IMG/VR virus record: IMGVR_UViG_3300030101_001943 | Span: 572-26,411 of that record | DNA: 25,840 nt | Strand: one strand, 5' to 3' | Origin: a virus | Shown here: positions 8,450-25,385 of the stretch, in pieces | How the letters are laid out: each line of letters opens with the position of its first letter | How positions within the stretch are numbered: the first letter of the stretch is position 1 | The notes under the pieces: generated by a model | What the model saw: only the letters and a program-made list of their open reading frames with translations | Databases searched by the model: none | Told to the model about the DNA's origin: nothing | Translations under genes and position numbers: made by a program

Positions 8450-8598
8450 TAAAACTAACTAAAAGGCAAGAAGATACTTTAAAAAAACATTCAAAGCATC
8501 ATACATCAAAACATATGAAGATGATGCGTATTGCTATGAGAAAAGGTTTGTCATTTACAAAAGCACATAAGAAAGCACAGAAGGAAGTTGGAACTTAA
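8446..8598 (+). CDS. 50-residue Lys/His/Met-rich basic protein
   Basis: MIKLTKRQEDTLKKHSKHHT then SKHMKMMRIAMRKGLSFTKA and a basic end (HKKAQKEVGT). The LTKRQ..TLKKHS.HHT..HM..M...M..G.SF..AH pattern is one I have seen in similar small viral proteins, but I know no function. Its five His and many Lys residues in a helix suggest nucleic-acid or metal contact. It starts at an ATGA overlap and ends at a TAATG overlap, so it belongs to the coupled cluster. Confidence 0.7.
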   Translation: MIKLTKRQEDTLKKHSKHHTSKHMKMMRIAMRKGLSFTKAHKKAQKEVGT

Positions 8599-10543: not shown

Positions 10544-10882
10544 ATGTGTTTATTTGGAGGTGGTAGCTCTGCTCCTACGAGGGATTTGGAAGCGGAAGCA
10601 GCCCAAAAAGCCGAACGTGAACGTCAGGAAGCAGAAAAAGCCAGAGCCAAAGAAAAGGCAACGGAAAGCCAAGTAAGACGTGGTACTCCTCTTGTTCAGT
10701 ATGTTCAAGCACCACAAGAGCCAAAAGCACCAGACCTTACAACAGAAAGACTTGGTAAAGGCGAATCTTTAGCACAAACACAAAGAAAAAAACGTACACG
10801 TTTAATGGGTCGTGGTCGTGCTAGAGGTAGAAGATCACTTCTTACAAGTACAGGTATGGGTTATTATGGGGGTAGAGTATAA
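10544..10882 (+). CDS. Small basic structural-region protein
   Basis: A 112-residue protein with three parts: a Gly/Ser-rich start (MCLFGGGSSAP), an Ala/Glu/Lys/Arg-rich coiled-coil stretch at about 15-45 (EAEAAQKAERERQEAEKARA), and a basic tail with GRGRARGRRSLLTSTGMGYYGG. A small gene with such a RGRRSLL / GMGYY end often stands before the portal of T7-like marine podoviruses. Its role is not established; a minor head or core component is likely. It has a good GGAGG site and overlaps the portal start by 1 nt (TAATG). Confidence 0.7.
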   Translation: MCLFGGGSSAPTRDLEAEAAQKAERERQEAEKARAKEKATESQVRRGTPLVQYVQAPQEPKAPDLTTERLGKGESLAQTQRKKRTRLMGRGRARGRRSLLTSTGMGYYGGRV

Positions 10883-12465
10883 TGATATTTAACTTTCATA
10901 ACCTTTCTGATGAACAAATTGCTAAAGAATTGATGGATAAATACCAAAGAGCAAAGACAGTAAGGGATCAATTTGTACCTTTGTTTGAAGAATGTTATGA
11001 ATTTTCTATGCCACAGAGAGAATCTTTTTATACAGAATCAATAGGACAAAGAAGAGATGAAAAGATATTTGATGAAACAGCTGTTGTTGGTGTTCAAGAG
11101 TTTGCATCAAGATTACAACAAGGTCTAGTTCCAAACTTTGCAAGATGGGCTGATTTCATTGCTGGCTCTGAAGTACCTAAAGATCAACGTGAAGCAGTCA
11201 ATAATGATTTAGATGAGGTAACAGAATATGTTTTTGAAATATTACAAAACTCAAACTTCGGTCAGGAAGTTCATGAGTCATTTATGGATTTGGCAGTAGG
11301 CACTGGTGTTCTTCATGTAACTGAAGGTGATGCAGTACAACCGATTGTGTTTTCAGCAATACCTTTACCTCATGTAGTATTAGATACTGGTCCTGATGAT
11401 AAAATAGATCATGTTTACCGAGAGAGAAATGTTCGTTATTCTCATATTCCTTTACTGTATCCTAATGGTAATTTCTCTAAACAGTTAATTGATAAGATGC
11501 AACAGACTCCAGATGCAAAAACAAAGATATTAGAAGTTGTTTGCAAGGATTATTCTAAATTAAATCAAGATGCACACTTTGATTATGTTGTAGATTGTGA
11601 AAGTAAAACACTTATTAGAAACAATTCCTTTGATGGTGTTGGTTCAAATCCTTATATTTGCTTTCGTTGGTCTAAATGTAGTGGTGAAATTTATGGTCGA
11701 GGACCACTAATGAATGCACTTTCAGCTGTAAAAACTACAAACTTAACAATGCAACTTGTGTTAGAAAATGCACAAATGGCTATATCTGGTATCTATCAAC
11801 TAGATGATGATGGTATAGTTAATCCAGATACAATTAGTTTAGTACCTGGGACAGTTATACCAAAAGCACCAAACTCAGCTGGTTTGCAACCAATAAGGGC
11901 TGCTGGCAACTTTGATGTAAGTCAATTTATATTTTCAGAAATGAGAATGAATATTAAGAAAGCTTTGTATAATGAAATGCTAGGTGATCCAAATAAAACA
12001 CCAGCTACTGCAACAGAGATAGCAGAACGTATGGCTGATTTATCAAGGCAAATTGGTTCTGCATTTGGTAGATTGCAATCAGAAATGGTACAACCAGTTT
12101 TACAAAGAGTAGTTCATATTCTTAGAAAGCAAGGAAGAATAGAAATACCAACAGTTAATGGCAGACAAGTAAAAGTAAGGTCATCATCTCCATTAAGTCA
12201 GGCACAATCAAGACAAGATATAAGTTCTACAACACAATGGTTACAAGTTGTTCAACAAGGTTTTGGTCCAGAAATAATGAATTTACTTGTTAGTGGTGAA
12301 GAAGTTGCAACCTATCTTGCTAAAAAATATGGTGTACCAGATAGCTTGATAAGAGATGCTAATGAAAGACAACAGATAACACAGATTATGCAACAAGCAC
12401 AAATGATGCAACAAGCACAGATGCAACAAGCACAACAGCAAGGAGAAGAAGTTGCAACGCAATAG
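10882..12465 (+). CDS. Head-to-tail connector / portal protein (T7 gp8-like)
   Basis: A 527-residue portal of the T7-type head-tail connector family (Head-tail_con). It forms the dodecameric ring at one capsid vertex through which DNA passes. The start IAKELMDKYQRAKTVRDQFVPLFEECYEFSMP and the segment FDETAVVGVQEFASRLQQGLVPNFARWADF are typical. So is the later LGDPNKTPATATEIAERMADL, which aligns with the conserved TATE(v/i) helix. The last 30 residues are a Gln/Met-rich repeat. Length is as expected. It interacts with the scaffold, capsid and tail tube A encoded downstream. Confidence 0.95.
   Translation: MIFNFHNLSDEQIAKELMDKYQRAKTVRDQFVPLFEECYEFSMPQRESFYTESIGQRRDEKIFDETAVVGVQEFASRLQQGLVPNFARWADFIAGSEVPKDQREAVNNDLDEVTEYVFEILQNSNFGQEVHESFMDLAVGTGVLHVTEGDAVQPIVFSAIPLPHVVLDTGPDDKIDHVYRERNVRYSHIPLLYPNGNFSKQLIDKMQQTPDAKTKILEVVCKDYSKLNQDAHFDYVVDCESKTLIRNNSFDGVGSNPYICFRWSKCSGEIYGRGPLMNALSAVKTTNLTMQLVLENAQMAISGIYQLDDDGIVNPDTISLVPGTVIPKAPNSAGLQPIRAAGNFDVSQFIFSEMRMNIKKALYNEMLGDPNKTPATATEIAERMADLSRQIGSAFGRLQSEMVQPVLQRVVHILRKQGRIEIPTVNGRQVKVRSSSPLSQAQSRQDISSTTQWLQVVQQGFGPEIMNLLVSGEEVATYLAKKYGVPDSLIRDANERQQITQIMQQAQMMQQAQMQQAQQQGEEVATQ
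12388..12435 (+). repeat. Tandem 15-nt repeat in the portal C-terminus
   Basis: Three copies of ATGCAACAAGCACA(A/G) lie at 12388-12402, 12406-12420 and 12421-12435, with one extra ATG between the first two. They encode MQQAQ repeats in a Gln-rich tail. The near-identity at nucleotide level suggests recent slippage expansion; repeat number may vary among relatives. Confidence 0.8.
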
Positions 12466-12715
12466 TTATGTTGGTATTGATGGGATACAAAGAACAAAAG
12501 AATCAGATGAAATAATAAGTAAAAATGTAAGTGCAGTATTTGATACCCCTGCTGGAAAAGAGGTATTGAATTATTTAAGGTCAATAACTATTGAAAGTGT
12601 TAATGGACCAATTATTGAACCTAACCAACTTTTGCATCATGAAGGTCAAAGATATATTGTTGCAATTGTTGAAAACAGAATCAAACACTCAAAGAGGATA
12701 AAAACAAATGGCTGA
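12452..12715 (+). CDS. Bbp19-like phage protein
   Basis: An 87-residue protein resembling the Bbp19-like domain of podoviruses. It has VFDTPAGKEVLNYLRSITIE in the middle and a LLHHEGQRYIVAIVENRIK helix toward the end, the usual 'GxxVLxxL ... EGxRxxV..I...I' layout. The family sits between portal and scaffold in many such phages and is thought to be a minor virion or assembly factor. The start is TTG at 12452: it has AGGAG at a 6-nt spacing, no in-frame ATG lies nearby, and the domain begins soon after. The start lies inside the portal gene (14-nt overlap), and the stop overlaps the scaffold start by 8 nt. Confidence 0.75.
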   Translation: MQRNSYVGIDGIQRTKESDEIISKNVSAVFDTPAGKEVLNYLRSITIESVNGPIIEPNQLLHHEGQRYIVAIVENRIKHSKRIKTNG

Positions 12716-13469
12716 AGAAAATCAAACAACTGAAGATGTTTCACGTGAAACAACCTTAGAATCTTATACTCAAGCACAAGAAAGTGCTGACACAACTGAC
12801 ACAACTGACATAACTGACAGACCAGAATGGTTGCCAGAAAAATTTAAATCAGAAAAAGATTTAGCTGAAGCATATAGTAATCTTGAAAAAAAGATTGGTC
12901 AAAAAGAAGAAGATTTAAAAAAACAATGGGAAGAAGAACTACAAGTAGAAGCCTATAAAGATAGACCAGAAAAGGTTGGTGATTACATTTTACCAGAAAA
13001 TATAGATCAATCTATGTCTGCAGACGATCCATTGTTAAAGTGGTGGGCTGATTATTCTTTTGAAAATGGTTCATCACAAGAAGAATTTAGCACTGGTATA
13101 GAAAAATATATTGAACGTATTAATGCTAATATACCTGATCCAGAAACTGAAATGAAAAGACTTGGAGATAATGGAGAAGAAAGAGTACAAGCAGTTGAGC
13201 TTTGGTCTAACAAATTCTTTCCAGATACATTAAGACAATCAATAGAATCTATAACAGAAACTGCTGATGGTATAATGGTTCTTGAACATTTTATGGAACA
13301 AATGAAAGATAGACCAAATGTTCAATCTGAATCACCAAATAAAATTACAATGGATTCTTTAAGAGAGTTACAAAAAGACCCAAGATACCATGATCCAGTT
13401 GCAAGGGATGCAGATTTTGTCAAAATGGTAGATGAAGGATACAAAAGATTGTATCCCAATGGAACTTAG
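12708..13469 (+). CDS. Scaffolding / capsid assembly protein (T7 gp9-like)
   Basis: A 253-residue acidic protein with the hallmark RPEWLPEKFKSEKDLAEAYSNLEKKIG at about residues 38-64, preceded by a disordered acidic Thr-rich leader and followed by a coiled-coil (KEEDLKKQWEEEL). The C-terminal part is helical, with RELQKDPRYHDP. It guides capsid assembly around the portal and leaves before DNA packaging. The N-terminal leader contains two oddities: a perfect parS-like site (12737-12752, read as VSRET) and a 9-nt tandem repeat (TDTTDITD). The position between portal and capsid is as in T7. Confidence 0.9.
   Translation: MAEENQTTEDVSRETTLESYTQAQESADTTDTTDITDRPEWLPEKFKSEKDLAEAYSNLEKKIGQKEEDLKKQWEEELQVEAYKDRPEKVGDYILPENIDQSMSADDPLLKWWADYSFENGSSQEEFSTGIEKYIERINANIPDPETEMKRLGDNGEERVQAVELWSNKFFPDTLRQSIESITETADGIMVLEHFMEQMKDRPNVQSESPNKITMDSLRELQKDPRYHDPVARDADFVKMVDEGYKRLYPNGT
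12737..12752. promoter_or_regulatory. parS: Perfect parS-type ParB-binding palindrome
   Basis: TGTTTCACGTGAAACA matches the bacterial chromosomal parS consensus at all 16 positions. It lies within codons for Asp-Val-Ser-Arg-Glu-Thr in the disordered leader of the scaffold. Established knowledge: chromosomal ParB (a CTP-dependent clamp) loads at this sequence and spreads. No parA or parB is visible in the window, so host ParB, or a phage homologue encoded elsewhere, would be the reader. Confidence 0.75.
12789..12818 (+). repeat. Tandem 9-nt repeat in the scaffold leader
   Basis: Three units GACACAACT, GACACAACT and GACATAACT plus a trailing GAC encode an acidic DTTDTTDITD stretch. It is an in-frame microsatellite in a disordered region; copy number likely varies without harming function. 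Confidence 0.8.
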
Positions 13470-14062: not shown

Positions 14063-14875
14063 ATGGCTAATACAATAGATCAAGCCTTTATCAAACAGTT
14101 TGAATCTGACGTTCACTTGGCATATCAAAGAATGGGATCAAAGCTAAGAAACACAGTTAGAACTGTAGGCAATGTTGCTGGAAGTGTTGTTCGCTTTCAG
14201 AAAATAGGAACTGGAAGTGCTAATACCAAATCAAGAAATGGTTTAGTAACTCCAATGGAACTAGCTCATACAAATGTTGAAGCTACTATGCAAGATTTTT
14301 ATGCTCCAGAGTTTATCGATAAGCTTGACGAGTTAAAAATAAACATAGACGAAAGACAAGCTGTTGCAAAAAGTGCAGCTGCTGCTCTTGGTCGTAAAAC
14401 AGATGAAATACTTTATACTGCTATGGATGCTGGTGCTAATAGTACACAGATTCATGACACAAGTAGTGCTGTTGAAAAAGCTGATTTACTATCATTATTT
14501 GAAACTATGGGTACTGCTAATATTCCAGAAGATGGTGGAAGATATTTAGCTATGCATCCAAAAGGTTTTGCAGATTTATTTAACATAAATGAGTTTGCAA
14601 GTTCAGATTTTGTTGGTGAACAAAATTTACCTTTTGCTGGTGGAATGACAATGAAAAACTTTTTAGGTTTTCAAATCTTTTCAACATCAGCAATTACTGC
14701 TGGTAAAAATATGGCTTATCATACTTCTGCAGTAGGACTTGGTATAGGTGCAGATGTTTCAACTGAAGTAAATTATGTTGCTGAAAGGGCTGCACATTTA
14801 ACTAACTCTATGATGTCAATGGGTGCTGTTGTTATTGATGACAATGGTGTTTATGAAGTCTTAGATAATAATTAA
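14063..14875 (+). CDS. Major capsid protein
   Basis: A 270-residue protein placed between the gp13-like/scaffold genes and the tail tube genes. The sequence has the look of a small HK97-fold capsid protein: an N-terminal helix (IDQAFIKQFESDVHLAYQRMG), an E-loop-like basic stretch (RTVGNVAGSVVRFQKIGTG), DELKINIDERQAVAKSAAAALGRKTDEILYTAMD, and a P-domain with FLGFQIFSTSAI and VGLGIGADVSTEV. It is short compared with T7 gp10 (about 345 residues). It has its own leader with candidate promoter upstream, and it is followed by a decoration-like protein. Confidence 0.9.
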   Translation: MANTIDQAFIKQFESDVHLAYQRMGSKLRNTVRTVGNVAGSVVRFQKIGTGSANTKSRNGLVTPMELAHTNVEATMQDFYAPEFIDKLDELKINIDERQAVAKSAAAALGRKTDEILYTAMDAGANSTQIHDTSSAVEKADLLSLFETMGTANIPEDGGRYLAMHPKGFADLFNINEFASSDFVGEQNLPFAGGMTMKNFLGFQIFSTSAITAGKNMAYHTSAVGLGIGADVSTEVNYVAERAAHLTNSMMSMGAVVIDDNGVYEVLDNN

Positions 14876-18266: not shown

Positions 18267-18715
18267 TGAATCCATTATTTATAGCATTAGGTATATTTGC
18301 AGGTTTTCAAAGTGCAAGTGCAGATTATCAAGCTGGTCAAGAACAGAGAAGATTAAAATATGAAGAAGCACAAAATGCTGAAATAGAAAAAAGACAATCT
18401 GAAATACAAGCACAACAACAACAAAACAATAGACTTCGTGATTTTGCAGAAGCAAAAGCAATTAATGAAGCTTTCTTTGCATATGCTGGTAGAGGAGCCA
18501 GTGACCAATCTGCTAAAGCTTTCTTTGATTATAATGAAGATATTGCATATGAAGATATTACACGTATTGCAAATACATCATTAATAAGAAGTTTACAGTA
18601 TGACACTCATGCTAGTAATTTAAGAAGAGCTGGTGATTATGCTGAAAGAGCTGGAAGCATTACTGCTTTCTCAACAATAATAAGTACTGGATTAAATACT
18701 GTTAGGACTGCTTAA
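18266..18715 (+). CDS. Internal virion protein (T7 gp14-like)
   Basis: A 149-residue protein beginning MNPLFIALGIFAGFQSASAD, a hydrophobic Gly-rich helix, followed by a long Gln/Glu/Lys/Arg coiled coil (about residues 25-60). After that come FAYAGRGASDQSAKAFFDYNEDIAYEDI and AGDYAERAGSITAFSTIISTG. This is the usual make-up of the small core protein that is ejected first and forms an outer-membrane pore. The identification rests on size, composition, the 'YAGRG' type segment and position directly after tail tube B. TAATG overlaps couple it to both neighbours. Confidence 0.8.
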   Translation: MNPLFIALGIFAGFQSASADYQAGQEQRRLKYEEAQNAEIEKRQSEIQAQQQQNNRLRDFAEAKAINEAFFAYAGRGASDQSAKAFFDYNEDIAYEDITRIANTSLIRSLQYDTHASNLRRAGDYAERAGSITAFSTIISTGLNTVRTA

Positions 18716-21700
18716 TGGCTAGAGTTGTAAGAGAAAAAACAAAAGTATTTACTGGTAATATTGGGATTAATACTACCAGTGGTACTGATATATCTAATTC
18801 ACTTAATCAAATATCGAGTGCTGCATCTAATGCTTCATCTGCATTTTTTAAACGAGCAGATGAAATAGCACAACAAGAAGGACTTGATGCTGCTAAAGAT
18901 TTAAAAATAGATCAAATTACAACATTAGATATTAACACTGGTAAGCCAGTTGCATTAAGTATTCCTAAGACATGGGGTATTACACGAACAAATGCTTTTC
19001 GTGATATGGTTGATAAAAGATTTTATGCAAGTATTGAAAATGAAATACGTGTAAAATCAAAAGAGTTTTCTCAAAAATATAAAACAAGTGGTAATTACTT
19101 AGCTAATTATAGATCAAGTATGCAAACATACTTGGCTTCAATGCATAAAGAATCAAGTGGTCAATATGCAGAATTTATTAAAGAAGTAGGTGGTAACACT
19201 ATTGCAGCTACTGAACCAAACATATTAGCTCATATAGAAAGTAAACAATTATCACAAACAAAAAACTTTATTGGATTAGAAAGATCAAAATTATTACAAC
19301 TTTATAATACAGCTTTTGATCCTGCTAAAAAAGCAGCTGCAAAAAAACAACTAGAAGAATTAACAGAAAAAGGTATAGCCTTACAATTACTTCCTAAAAA
19401 TGCAAAAGATGCATTAAGCTTTGAGCTTTCATCTATTGATGGTTTTAATACATTTAGAAATATTATTGGTAATTCTGATAATGTAAAAGAATTAAATAGT
19501 TTACAAACTTATCTTCTTACTAACAATCCAAGTTTATTAAATGGTTTTGGTAAGGAAAAGAAAAAACAAATTATTCAAGCAAGACAGTCATTAGATAATC
19601 AACAAGTTAATGCTATTAATTCAACAGCTAACCAAGCTAAAACAAGAATTAACAATGTTCAAAATGAATTTGAAAGAGAACAATCTAATCTTGCTGTTGA
19701 AAATGCTAGTTCTATTGTTACTCAAGCAACTCAATTTGTATTTGATCAACCTATAAATACTGAAGGTGCTTTTTTAGAAGAGTTTGAATCTTCATTAGCT
19801 AAAGCTTATGAACACATTATAAAAGAACATCCAGAGTTAGCTTTTAATCCTTCAGTTGCTAATCGTGTAAAAACTAATATTAGAAATGCACAAACAGATA
19901 GATATTTATCTAGTGCATTTGCATTACTTTCAGATGAAGAAGAACGATTATTTACTACATATGGTGGAAATAATTTAATAAATAATGCATATTATTCATT
20001 GCCAAATCAAAGACCAATATCATCTGAAGATCAAAACATTTATAATCAGTTAGTAGCACTTAGTCCTAATTTTGAAAATCTATTTAATACAGTAGAAGAA
20101 CTTTCTGCAGCTGGTGTTCCTACATCAAGTATTACACAAGTATTTAATTCTAGAACTAAAAATTGGACACAACCTTATACAACAAGTGAACAAAAAAAAT
20201 TAGAAATAATACAAAATCTTACTGAAAACACTGGTAAAGTATTTGATGGTACAACAAAAGATTATCAATCAGCAGCTGGTGATTTAATGCAAACAGCATA
20301 TCAAAACTCATCATTAGTTACTGATGCAGAAACTGGTCAGTTTCTTGGTGATTTTATTAATGATCCTAGAATTTTTGATAATCAAGAAATAATGGATACT
20401 TATGGTCAAATGTTAGATCAAGGTGCTTTACCAATTCAAATAATAAATGCAATTAAAAGTAATAATATTTCTGAAACAGTTTATAAATTAGCTACTATAG
20501 CACAACAACATATTACTTATAGAGGTAACAATCAATTACCAGTTGTAAGAAATGTTTTAAATAACATTTCCGGTATTCAATTATTTAATGAAAAATTATA
20601 TGCTGTAAATAGTTTACTTAAATTAGGAATTACTTCAGGTATACCTGACTATGATTCAAATGGTAAACTTGTAGAAGGAACTGGTAAAGCTATAGAAAGT
20701 TATACAGAAGCTTTTGAACTAATGAATAGTTTTGATATTAAAGATAATTCACCTTTTATTGACAAACTAAATAGAGCTGCAAAGTTTGCTGGATTTAAAG
20801 ATCAAGGCAATAAAAGTCCAATGCAACAAATTTACGATAGTATTGATAAAATTCTTATAGATGAATATCCAGAATTAGTTAATGATTTTAGAAATGTTGC
20901 AGAATATATGCTTATGGTAGGTACAAAGTTTGATGAAAATACTTTGAAAACTATGATAAAAGATTACGTTGAAATTAATACTGGCTCTGATGGTATTGTT
21001 TATGATAGTGCAAATGTAACTAATCCACATAGAAGTATATTTGCATTAAATCAGATTTTTAAACAACCAGAAATAGCAGTTGCTTTTACAAAATCTATTG
21101 AGTCATTAGTTAATCAACAGTATTTAAATGCTTATTCTAATACGTTTTTTGATTACGAAAAACAACAACTTAAATCTAATTATAAAAAATATAATTCACT
21201 TGAAGATGCATTTTTAAATGAAAAAATGACTTTCTTTACATTTAATAATTCAGAAATGACCGATCAGGAAGCTGAAGATATTTTCTTTAAAAAAAGAATT
21301 GATTTTAATTTTGGTGATTTTGATGATTTATCTGATGATAGATTTATTATGCGTTCTTTTACTGGTGGTGCAAAAGCAAATTTAGAAAAAAAAGGTGGAA
21401 AATATATTTTTACCTATGATCGAGAAGGTAGTGGATTTTTACCAATGGAAAAAACACTTGTTGATTATTATTATCAATATGAAGGTGATCCAGCTTTATT
21501 TAGTACAAAAGGTTCATTTGAAAAAAGTGTAGGTACAAGTTTTACTAAAAGAGTAATGAGTCAAGAAGTAGGAAGTTCAACTATTCAAAATATGTTTTTA
21601 ATACCACTTCCAAATAAGATTGGCACAAATGTATTTGCTGAAGAAAGTATATTTGATGTTCAATATATTGTTGCTATTAAATCCCCAGGTGGTGGGTTAA

Positions 21701-22029
21701 GACCATTAAATAATCCAAATACTCAAGGTAGCTTTATTATTGATCCAAAAGATTTTAAAAATGCAGTTGAATCATTTGATGAAAGCTATAAGAAAGCTAT
21801 TCTTACTCCAGGAGAAATAGAAGCTTTCAAATTAAATAATTTAAATCAAGACAATCCTGACTTTCAAAAACCAGTTACATTACGTGAAGATATAGTTGAT
21901 AAAACTATTAAATTTAATTTAAAAGCTTTTGAATTTTTAAATAATAATATTCATAAACTTCCAAATATTTATAGTCCATCATTTAATGTTAGAGTACCAA
22001 CCCAGTTTTTAGGTGAAGAATCTAGGTAA
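18715..22029 (+). CDS. Large internal virion protein (T7 gp15-position)
   Basis: A 1104-residue, mostly helical, Asn/Lys/Glu-rich protein in the position of T7 gp15. The N-terminal 100 residues (KVFTGNIGINTTSGTDISNSL, then SSAASNASSAFFKRADEIAQQEGLDAAKDL) are characteristic of this core-protein class. The middle is a long set of helices with no signal, membrane segment or lytic motif that I can see. In T7 such proteins form the inner core and, after ejection, the periplasmic conduit for DNA. It is longer than T7 gp15 (about 750 residues), so it may contain extra domains. It is followed by 5 nt and the next core gene. Confidence 0.75.
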   Translation: MARVVREKTKVFTGNIGINTTSGTDISNSLNQISSAASNASSAFFKRADEIAQQEGLDAAKDLKIDQITTLDINTGKPVALSIPKTWGITRTNAFRDMVDKRFYASIENEIRVKSKEFSQKYKTSGNYLANYRSSMQTYLASMHKESSGQYAEFIKEVGGNTIAATEPNILAHIESKQLSQTKNFIGLERSKLLQLYNTAFDPAKKAAAKKQLEELTEKGIALQLLPKNAKDALSFELSSIDGFNTFRNIIGNSDNVKELNSLQTYLLTNNPSLLNGFGKEKKKQIIQARQSLDNQQVNAINSTANQAKTRINNVQNEFEREQSNLAVENASSIVTQATQFVFDQPINTEGAFLEEFESSLAKAYEHIIKEHPELAFNPSVANRVKTNIRNAQTDRYLSSAFALLSDEEERLFTTYGGNNLINNAYYSLPNQRPISSEDQNIYNQLVALSPNFENLFNTVEELSAAGVPTSSITQVFNSRTKNWTQPYTTSEQKKLEIIQNLTENTGKVFDGTTKDYQSAAGDLMQTAYQNSSLVTDAETGQFLGDFINDPRIFDNQEIMDTYGQMLDQGALPIQIINAIKSNNISETVYKLATIAQQHITYRGNNQLPVVRNVLNNISGIQLFNEKLYAVNSLLKLGITSGIPDYDSNGKLVEGTGKAIESYTEAFELMNSFDIKDNSPFIDKLNRAAKFAGFKDQGNKSPMQQIYDSIDKILIDEYPELVNDFRNVAEYMLMVGTKFDENTLKTMIKDYVEINTGSDGIVYDSANVTNPHRSIFALNQIFKQPEIAVAFTKSIESLVNQQYLNAYSNTFFDYEKQQLKSNYKKYNSLEDAFLNEKMTFFTFNNSEMTDQEAEDIFFKKRIDFNFGDFDDLSDDRFIMRSFTGGAKANLEKKGGKYIFTYDREGSGFLPMEKTLVDYYYQYEGDPALFSTKGSFEKSVGTSFTKRVMSQEVGSSTIQNMFLIPLPNKIGTNVFAEESIFDVQYIVAIKSPGGGLRPLNNPNTQGSFIIDPKDFKNAVESFDESYKKAILTPGEIEAFKLNNLNQDNPDFQKPVTLREDIVDKTIKFNLKAFEFLNNNIHKLPNIYSPSFNVRVPTQFLGEESR

Positions 22030-22034
22030 AGAAT

Positions 22035-25000
22035 ATGAATAAAGGATATTTACCATTAAGAAGTGTAGGTATTAAACCTAGATCACCATCATTCGGTCAA
22101 GTTATATCTGCACAATTTGGTTATAACTATGATCCTATTCATGAATATTTATATAATGAATATGTTGTTGGTACAGAACATGATCCTAACTATAACGCAC
22201 TTGAAGATTTAGAAGGTTATGAATTATACTCTCAACATTTATTGTCTGCACAAAATGCAGATCATATGGCTAGTTTAAAACGTGGTATTGATGATAACAT
22301 TCGCAGAAGAGAAATAATTGGAGAAGCTGGATTAGGCTATAATCTAATGGCTGGTTTTTTTGATCCAGTTAATTTATTAGCTTTGCCACTTGGTGGACCA
22401 ACTGTTGGAATTGGTCGTTCTATGGTAAGAGTGGGTGCTGGTGTTGGATTAACACAAGTTGGTCAAGAAGCATTACGTGCGCCATTTGATCCTCTTAATA
22501 CAAAAGAAGAAGTATTTAATAATATCGCAATGGCTACTGCTGGTGGTGCTGTTTTTGGTGGTTTGTTTTCTATACCTATTACTAGAAAAGGTAAAATGAT
22601 GGCAAAGCTTATGAAAGATATGGATGAAGCTAAATCAGCATCAAAAGGAATATCAGTAGAAAGTATTACTCCAGATGGTAAAGTTACAGTTTCAAAAAAA
22701 GTAGATAAAAATAAACAAATTGTTTCACGTGAAACCAATGAACCAGTTGCTCATGTAGGTAGTGATTCACAATTAAGAAATAATCAAACTGGTGAAATAA
22801 TAGAAGATACTTCTAAAAATAAAAAAATAACATTTGATATAACAAATCCATTTGGAATGGCACGTTCTTGGTATACTGATTCTTGGATGTATAAAGGTAT
22901 TACTACACCTATGAAAAGAGTTTTGCAAAATGAAAATTTGCCAGATTTTGTTAAGTTTTCTTTTGTTAAATTAGCTGGTGACTCTGGAGTAAAACTTAAT
23001 TTACATAAGTATGGTATTGCCATTGATCCAAGTGTTTATCAAAAATCAAAGATAAGAGAAGGTGAATGGGTATCTGTTTACGATCAATTAGTAAAATTAT
23101 ACACAAAAGAAACAGATCAAAAAATATTAAATCCTGGAGGGTTTGATTATAACTTAACTAATAATAGACACTTTATTCAATGGTTAGAAGATTTAGAATT
23201 AAAAAGAATACAAAATATTAAAAGTGAAAGTACAGTAGCAAGAGAAGCACAAAGTTTATTAACTCAATTTTGGGAAACATGGAGAGTAAGGTTAGATTCT
23301 GAAGGATTGTTAGGTGGTAAAAACTATCTACAAATTGCAATACAGCGTACTAAAACAAGAATAGAAACTAAACAAAAAATAGCAGATGCATATATAAGAC
23401 AAAATAAATCAGTAGATAAAGTAAATGCACAAATTAAAAAATTAAAAGACGAATTACAAAATTATGAAAATAGATTAGCTAAAGGTGAAAGTGAATCAGG
23501 TATGTACTTACCTAGATATTGGAGCCTTAGTAAAATAAGCAGAAATAGAAATGTTTTAGTTGATATTATTGCTAAGTATTATTTAGATAATCCATTAGCT
23601 GAAGGTTTTATTAATAAAAAAACTGGAAAAGAACTAACAGAAAAAGAACTTAAATTATTAAATAGTGAAGAATCTGTAAGACAAAGAGCAGAAGCTACTG
23701 TAAAAGCAATAGAGAATAAAGGTGATTTATTTGATATTGAAGCACAAGATTTAGTTGCTAACAATATGTTTGATGGTTTTATTGAAGTTTCATCAAAGCA
23801 TATTAAGCAAAGAAACTTAGATATACCTACTTATTTGGTTGCTGATTTTATTGAAATGAATCCTATTTCTGTAATGAAAGCATACACTGGTAAGATTGCA
23901 CCTCATTATGAATGGTCAAAACAATTTGGAAGAGGTGGTTTAGAAAAAACATTATCTGATATTGAAGATGCTATTATTAATGCTGGTCTTAGTCAAAAGA
24001 CAGTACAAAGAGTGCATAAGGATTTTGTTTCTTTATATGATCGTGTAATGAAAACAGTTGTTAAAGAACCACACGCACTTAATCAAAAGATAAGAAGAGT
24101 GTTAAATGACTATGCTACTTTAAATTTTTTAGGTTCTGCTGGTTTTTCTACATTGCCAGATTATGCTAAAATAATTATGGAACATGAATTGGGTACAGTT
24201 TTTAAAACACTATCTGGTTTGTTTAAAGATCAAAGAATAAGTCTTTCGAAGAGTGAAGCACGTATTGCTGGTGAAGCTTTAGAAATATTGATGGGTGATA
24301 CTCATTTAAGATTTAGTGATGATATGATTAATAATCCTTTTGGTGATGGTTTTTATGCAAAAGGAATGGATAAAGTAAAACAAGGTTTCTTTTTTCTTAA
24401 TGGTTTAGCTCCTCTTACTAATATAGCAAAAAGACTTGATGGTATTATGCGTGGACATACTATTATTGACTATGCATTAAAAGCTAAAAAAAATTCAGCT
24501 ACACAGTTTCAAAAAGAATGGTTAGCTAGAAACAATATTACACAAAAAATGATTGATGAAATAGCTGATAAAGCTGGCTGGCAAAACACAAAAAAAGATA
24601 ATACTGGTTTATATTTACCTAATTCTGAAACTTGGTTAGCTAAAGGTGTATCTCAAGAAACGCTTGATGGTTTTAGATCATCTATGAATACTGGTATAGG
24701 AAATACTATTTTGATGGGAACACCAGCAGATAAACCTATTGCAGTTGATGGTGTGTTTTATGTTCCATACAACATTGGTCGTTTGTTTGGAATGAAACAA
24801 GACAATAGAGTACAAGGTTATTCAAGAATAGAAAATGGTTTGCTTGCATTACCATTTCAATTTTTATCATATTCTTTTGCAGCATCAAATAAAATTACAG
24901 CATCTTTTGCACAAGGTACGTTAACAAACCCAATTATAGGAATGTTTGCTGCAATGGGACTTGGTTATATGTCATTAGAAATAAAGTATGCAATGTATCC

Positions 25001-25385
25001 ATATATACTAGATGAAATGAGTTGGAGAGATAAATTTGCTAGAGCATTTGATGCATCAGGTTTAATGGCTTTACATTCTGATTTAGCCTACAGTGTATTA
25101 AATAATGCTACTGCATTAGGATATGTAAATGATGAAAATTTTGGAATTAGTCCAAAATATAAAGTTCCAACTGAAGGTGTTGAAAGAACGCTTGATGTTG
25201 CTGGTCAATGGATTGGTCCAGCTGGTGGGTTAGTTGGTGATATTGGTCTTGGTCTACATCAATTACATCATGGAAATTACGCAGAAGGTACAGAAACCTT
25301 AATAAATACAGCACCTGGGAGATCATTATGGTTTATAAAAGGTTTAGTTGGAGAAGCTAAAAGACACGTAAGAAATAATTTTTAA
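22035..25385 (+). CDS. Large internal virion protein (T7 gp16-position)
   Basis: A 1116-residue protein. Near the N-terminus (about residues 95-185) hydrophobic Gly-rich helices appear: AGLGYNLMAGFFDPVNLLALPLGG, then MVRVGAGVGLTQVGQEALRAP and AMATAGGAVFGGLFSIP. This is typical of membrane-inserting core proteins that build the inner-membrane part of the ejection channel. Further on there is a coiled coil at about 435-490, and near the C-terminus more hydrophobic segments (GMFAAMGLGYMSLEI). I see no transglycosylase (SLT) motif, unlike T7 gp16. A parS-like site lies in codons for IVSRETNEP at about residues 229-237, in a Lys/Asp/Ser-rich linker. The ribosome site is weak (AGGTAAAGA). Confidence 0.75.
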   Translation: MNKGYLPLRSVGIKPRSPSFGQVISAQFGYNYDPIHEYLYNEYVVGTEHDPNYNALEDLEGYELYSQHLLSAQNADHMASLKRGIDDNIRRREIIGEAGLGYNLMAGFFDPVNLLALPLGGPTVGIGRSMVRVGAGVGLTQVGQEALRAPFDPLNTKEEVFNNIAMATAGGAVFGGLFSIPITRKGKMMAKLMKDMDEAKSASKGISVESITPDGKVTVSKKVDKNKQIVSRETNEPVAHVGSDSQLRNNQTGEIIEDTSKNKKITFDITNPFGMARSWYTDSWMYKGITTPMKRVLQNENLPDFVKFSFVKLAGDSGVKLNLHKYGIAIDPSVYQKSKIREGEWVSVYDQLVKLYTKETDQKILNPGGFDYNLTNNRHFIQWLEDLELKRIQNIKSESTVAREAQSLLTQFWETWRVRLDSEGLLGGKNYLQIAIQRTKTRIETKQKIADAYIRQNKSVDKVNAQIKKLKDELQNYENRLAKGESESGMYLPRYWSLSKISRNRNVLVDIIAKYYLDNPLAEGFINKKTGKELTEKELKLLNSEESVRQRAEATVKAIENKGDLFDIEAQDLVANNMFDGFIEVSSKHIKQRNLDIPTYLVADFIEMNPISVMKAYTGKIAPHYEWSKQFGRGGLEKTLSDIEDAIINAGLSQKTVQRVHKDFVSLYDRVMKTVVKEPHALNQKIRRVLNDYATLNFLGSAGFSTLPDYAKIIMEHELGTVFKTLSGLFKDQRISLSKSEARIAGEALEILMGDTHLRFSDDMINNPFGDGFYAKGMDKVKQGFFFLNGLAPLTNIAKRLDGIMRGHTIIDYALKAKKNSATQFQKEWLARNNITQKMIDEIADKAGWQNTKKDNTGLYLPNSETWLAKGVSQETLDGFRSSMNTGIGNTILMGTPADKPIAVDGVFYVPYNIGRLFGMKQDNRVQGYSRIENGLLALPFQFLSYSFAASNKITASFAQGTLTNPIIGMFAAMGLGYMSLEIKYAMYPYILDEMSWRDKFARAFDASGLMALHSDLAYSVLNNATALGYVNDENFGISPKYKVPTEGVERTLDVAGQWIGPAGGLVGDIGLGLHQLHHGNYAEGTETLINTAPGRSLWFIKGLVGEAKRHVRNNF
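22721..22736. promoter_or_regulatory. parS: Second parS-like site (15/16)
   Basis: TGTTTCACGTGAAACC differs from the 16-bp parS consensus only in the last base; the 14-bp core GTTTCACGTGAAAC (22722-22735) is a perfect palindrome. It encodes Val-Ser-Arg-Glu-Thr in the same frame as the site at 12737-12752. The two sites are about 10 kb apart. Confidence 0.65.

Follow-up and report, generated by a model that had tools for sequence, protein, structure and literature searches.

The source record is a linear virus fragment of 26,411 bases, and the window (the whole stretch of DNA that was analysed here) comprises 25,840 nucleotides of it. The features relevant to this study are as follows.

10882 to 12465, + strand: portal (head-tail connector) gene, which served to find and place relatives
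12708 to 13469, + strand: gene for a scaffold-type protein of 253 aa, with site 1 inside its low-complexity leader
12737 to 12752, no strand assigned: parS site 1, TGTTTCACGTGAAACA, coding for VSRET in the early part of the scaffold gene
14063 to 14875, + strand: major capsid protein (Pfam Phage_capsid_2), the right edge of the block that holds most of the relatives' sites
22035 to 25385, + strand: gene for an internal virion protein of 1116 aa (PHROG 342, internal virion protein with endolysin domain), which contains site 2
22721 to 22736, no strand assigned: parS site 2, TGTTTCACGTGAAACC, coding for VSRET in the internal virion protein; a homologous perfect site is present in the relative L274/G034 (L364)

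The scaffold label is supported by the position between portal and capsid, by a weak PHROG head-assembly match (E 5e-4) and by tblastn, which matched genes with a scaffolding-protein annotation. A 1104-aa gene at 18715-22029 had no PHROG or Pfam match and was mostly unlike the genes found at the same place in close relatives, with a weak match in L126 only.

Site 1 starts 29 nt downstream of the start codon (ATG) of the scaffold gene and is identical at all 16 positions to the chromosomal-type parS consensus that PMC10197239 cites from Livny et al. 2007. Site 2 agrees with this 16-bp consensus at 15 of 16 positions and its 14-bp core is perfect, so that both sites match well enough to be called chromosomal-type parS. 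With the base composition of the window (33.3% G+C), 9e-6 occurrences of the 16-mer were expected and one was seen, and the 14-bp core was seen twice against 8e-5 expected. Dinucleotide shuffles contained on average 0.23 places with no more than three mismatches to parS. Both sites yield VSRET in the reading frame of their genes. A previous sequence-only reading had reported the perfect 16-bp site as well as two copies of the core against an expectation of about 0.0001, and had found no ParA or ParB gene in the window. All three statements are confirmed here, the second one by the composition-based estimate and the third one over the whole record, in which neither the ParB_N nor the AAA_31 (ParA-type) profile gave any match.

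To place these sites among related phages, relatives were picked regardless of parS by a portal search, which yielded 80 loci. Seven relatives have a scaffold protein 85-99% identical to that of the window, and the exact site 1 is kept in all six of those that cover the start of the gene. It is also present at the same position of the leader in L055 (56% scaffold identity) and in the leader of L113 (42% identity). As the parS scan was what first revealed these two loci, they show recurrence rather than an unbiased sample; L055 was also recovered by the portal search. The 905 kb of related phage DNA, which include loci found through parS, contain 24 sites that deviate from parS at one position or none, 14 of them exact; as a control, each of 20 half-site-shuffled palindromes gave no site in the same DNA. 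Among the window and its relatives, the sites occupy six different positions, one of which is non-coding.

Class A: scaffold leader; window clade, L055, L113, L276, L277 and L314
Class B: close to the end of the scaffold gene; eight loci
Class C: internal virion protein, at the position corresponding to site 2 of the window; L274
Class D: farther along the internal virion protein; L272
Class E: gene preceding the capsid gene; L336 and L347, with one central mismatch
Class F: gap free of long open frames, upstream of the small gene that precedes the scaffold gene; L042

By eye, the L042 site (8564-8579) lies downstream of a promoter-like TTGACT...TATACT, and a tiny leader, MFHVKHL, is a possible reading of this non-coding parS. 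When the site states are placed on an 89-row portal tree, nine changes are required in total; class A alone requires five, at least four of which are forced by the starred branches. This tree came from a quick search and could not distinguish gain from loss, and the state "none" refers solely to the stretch covered for each relative.

On the other hand, 57 relatives with a scaffold match had no site within the stretch examined, and G044 and G049 (33.7 and 33.5 kb, near-complete length) had none even when two mismatches were allowed. Hodr, the nearest isolate, carries only the two-mismatch variant TGTTTCAAATGAAACA (L130, 5018-5033), and in six other pelagiphage isolates even the best match had at least two mismatches. 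In the Hodr variant both 7-bp arms of the palindrome are kept and AA/TT replaces the CG centre. Because of these relatives without a close site, parS is a common but not a required element in this phage group. Absence from relatives had been named as an outcome that would leave the parS function unsupported, and it applies only in part: the six close relatives, L055 and L113 have the site, and some other relatives do not.

The nearest annotated genome is that of Pelagibacter phage EXVC031P Hodr (portal 61% identical), from which SAR11 was inferred as the host. This marine phage thus probably infects a SAR11 bacterium of the ocean, an assignment that rests on Hodr only. A portal link of the phage to a cell was sought in 297 SAR11 genomes, which gave identities of 22-27% only and no close portal. 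A site with no more than two mismatches is present in 20 of 26 SAR11 genomes, and 19 of these 20 have it in the first part of rsmG, next to parA and with the reading VSRET. The very 16-mer of the phage site occurs in SAR11 rsmG; there, parS falls within the rsmG codons that read VSRET (L253, L251-L270, position 1501), directly upstream of parA, and about one perfect parS is found per SAR11 genome. Each of the 16 SAR11 genomes tested gave exactly one ParB match, with a parS, identical or nearly so, about 1.5-2 kb away. The likely, still inferred, host group therefore has ParB together with an identical parS, which had been proposed as a check of the predicted host. Host sites in rsmG with a single mismatch differ at the outermost base, and the same is true of most single-mismatch phage sites.

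Partition and integration genes were also searched for in the phages. With control genomes positive as expected in each case, no match was found to ParB_N in 21 phage records, to AAA_31 in 14 or to tyrosine integrase in 21. A self-contained phage ParABS, as in a plasmid prophage, was rejected in the absence of any ParA or ParB profile match in these records. It might also be proposed that the 16-mer serves phage attachment or recombination at the parS in host rsmG, as it is common to host and phage. We give this idea almost no credence: the identity between host and phage barely exceeds 16 bp, the phage positions are several and different, and attachment was rejected for want of an integrase in the 21 records.

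Another possibility is that VSRET is a protein motif, for example for cleavage or binding, and that the palindrome is a by-product. Every coding site does lie in the VSRET frame, and Hodr retains VSNET with an imperfect palindrome. However, all 21 VSRETs in phage genes of our set are spelled GTT TCA CGT GAA AC(A/C), and a parS-type spelling would be expected for only about 1.6% of VSRETs according to the codon use of the window. These 21 cases are related, and the 1.6% gives no probability for 21 independent draws. VSRET kept with other codons, which would have left a parS function unsupported, was not seen, as every VSRET in a phage gene is the palindrome. At site 2, a single one of the 16 bases differs between the window and L274, while identity in the 90-bp flanks on either side is only 78% and 68%. 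In the sister loci L055 and L271, the VSRE block is present in the former and absent from the latter within an otherwise alignable leader, and the class B sites are located in a linker whose residues in sister loci are unrelated. The L042 site falls in a non-coding gap, which separates the palindrome from any peptide role. Moreover, the bias towards the VSRET frame needs no peptide function, because one of the other two forward frames gives a stop and the other FHVK, and VSRET is encoded by the host parS in rsmG as well. A peptide motif was rejected since it is never spelled otherwise and one site is non-coding; we regard it as very improbable. The DNA is thus conserved beyond the need of the peptide, as judged from the sites of the relatives, their codons, the portal tree and the flanks of site 2.

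The same 16-mer was then found in 286 of 50,697 GenBank phage records (824 strand-counted places, or about 412 sites), whereas two control palindromes gave none in the same records. Many of the 286 records are near-copies of one another. Among 12 representatives of different lineages, 11 had no ParB_N match. Annotated genes surround the site in 11 representatives, and in nine of these parS was not wholly contained in a gene. The 286 records come from many lineages, often with the site between genes; examples with exact parS in INPHARED are B103 (L368), SpV4 (L369), bajarodino virus 6 (L370), P100 (L371), DSS3P8 (L375), Bacchae (L376), Vibrio phage phi 3 (L377) and Athos (L378), and a 5.9-kb inovirus has six copies. 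Our searches of an open-access library gave no description of chromosomal parS in phages without ParB, which does not prove that none exists. We lean towards the view that orphan chromosomal parS is a repeated, convergent phage strategy by which unrelated lineages lacking ParB recruit the centromere protein of the host. The lineages to which we would extend this view, with the same reserve, are marine podoviruses, Listeria and Lactobacillus myoviruses, phi29-like and T5-like phages, actinophages, microviruses and inoviruses.

The absence of the site from many relatives might suggest chance, or inheritance without selection. This explanation is extremely unlikely in view of the recurrence at different loci and of the contrast with control palindromes, both in related phage DNA (24 sites against none for 20 controls) and in GenBank phages (286 records against none for two). 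Chance was rejected because the control palindromes yield no sites.

It is very likely that the phage sequence is a real docking site for the ParB of the host, for which no binding data are available. The observations behind this statement are the sequence itself, its recurrence at different loci, the exact codons, the occurrence of a matching parS and of ParB in the inferred host group, and the lack of detected ParA and ParB in the phages. We are confident that the palindrome is a selected ParB site, and it is quite probable that ParB loads on phage DNA in the cell, binding in the infected cell being inferred. The earlier interpretation as a functional parS is hence supported by the conservation, the codons and the ParB and parS of the likely host, and remains an inference as far as the action of ParB on phage DNA is concerned.

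We propose that the palindrome may act as a functional chromosomal-type parS, which selection on DNA would keep, lose and regain. The host ParB, probably that of SAR11, would bind the site on the injected phage genome, close as a CTP clamp and slide along the DNA; ParB has been described to close on DNA with CTP and to spread from parS (PMC12704722). A phage genome coated in this way might resemble the origin region of the chromosome to the cell. As the phage multiplies, its copies would outnumber the single parS of the host and could capture ParB, with it ParA and possibly SMC, so that phage DNA would be positioned or compacted and the host chromosome would lose segregation capacity. When parS was engineered onto phage lambda in the presence of CFP-ParB, ParB gathered on the infecting DNA, and replication and lysis continued (PMC13190303). 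A decoy or borrowed-centromere effect, rather than another effect of ParB, is the outcome that we moderately favour, its benefit being inferred. Reading the effect broadly, the explanation as a whole appears somewhat more probable than its negation, with three of its elements inferred, namely who the host is, that ParB binds during infection and that the phage benefits.

Two other roles of a loaded ParB remain as open rivals. Since the sites are mostly within the block of portal, scaffold, capsid and internal virion protein genes, a spreading clamp could lower or time the transcription of late morphogenesis genes; ParB is reported to repress promoters beside parS3 and parS4 in Pseudomonas aeruginosa (PMC5521831). 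However, the position in the block varies and distant genes are included, which implies that no fixed promoter is served, and the parS of other phage lineages lie in quite different gene settings. Gene control as the main role is therefore possible but rather unlikely. Alternatively, ParB at the phage parS might mainly recruit the host SMC, which would compact or disentangle replicating DNA for packaging or mark the DNA as self. An SMC_N match above the cut-off was present in all 10 SAR11 genomes tested, and SMC loading at ParB-parS has been described in bacteria (PMC10197239), but the phage sequence offers no pointer specific to SMC, and we retain this role only as a minor possibility.

If ParB does load on phage genomes, a core chromosome-segregation protein would be a host factor or a target in infection. 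Capture of ParB by the phage would, if true, also allow clamp loading and titration of ParB to be tested with a phage, and would mean that a replicating virus can capture chromosome segregation in SAR11, whose genomes have about one parS each as seen here.

In comparison with known systems, the phage 16-mer is identical to the parS of chromosomal ParABS (Spo0J/ParB family). In both, the outermost base is the usual variable position, and the phage site codes for VSRET as does the SAR11 parS in rsmG. The phage differs in that it has no detectable ParA or ParB and in that the site lies in late structural genes, not beside parAB. Plasmid prophages and phage-plasmids such as P1, N15 and cyanophage Mic1 (PMC7156551) likewise have a parS-type site in a phage genome; however, they encode their own ParA and ParB, neither of which was detected in the phages studied here. 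Among analogues that have been worked out, SGI1 comes closest (PMC10954446): it carries mimics of parS to which the ParB of an IncC plasmid binds, and these mimics make SGI1 more stable and the plasmid less so. In both cases a mobile element has the parS of another replicon without the ParAB of that system, on which it depends or, for the phage, would depend. SGI1 is an integrative element that exploits a plasmid, whereas the phage, without a detected integrase, would exploit the system of the host chromosome. By analogy, phage copies would capture the host ParB together with the machinery that it brings along.
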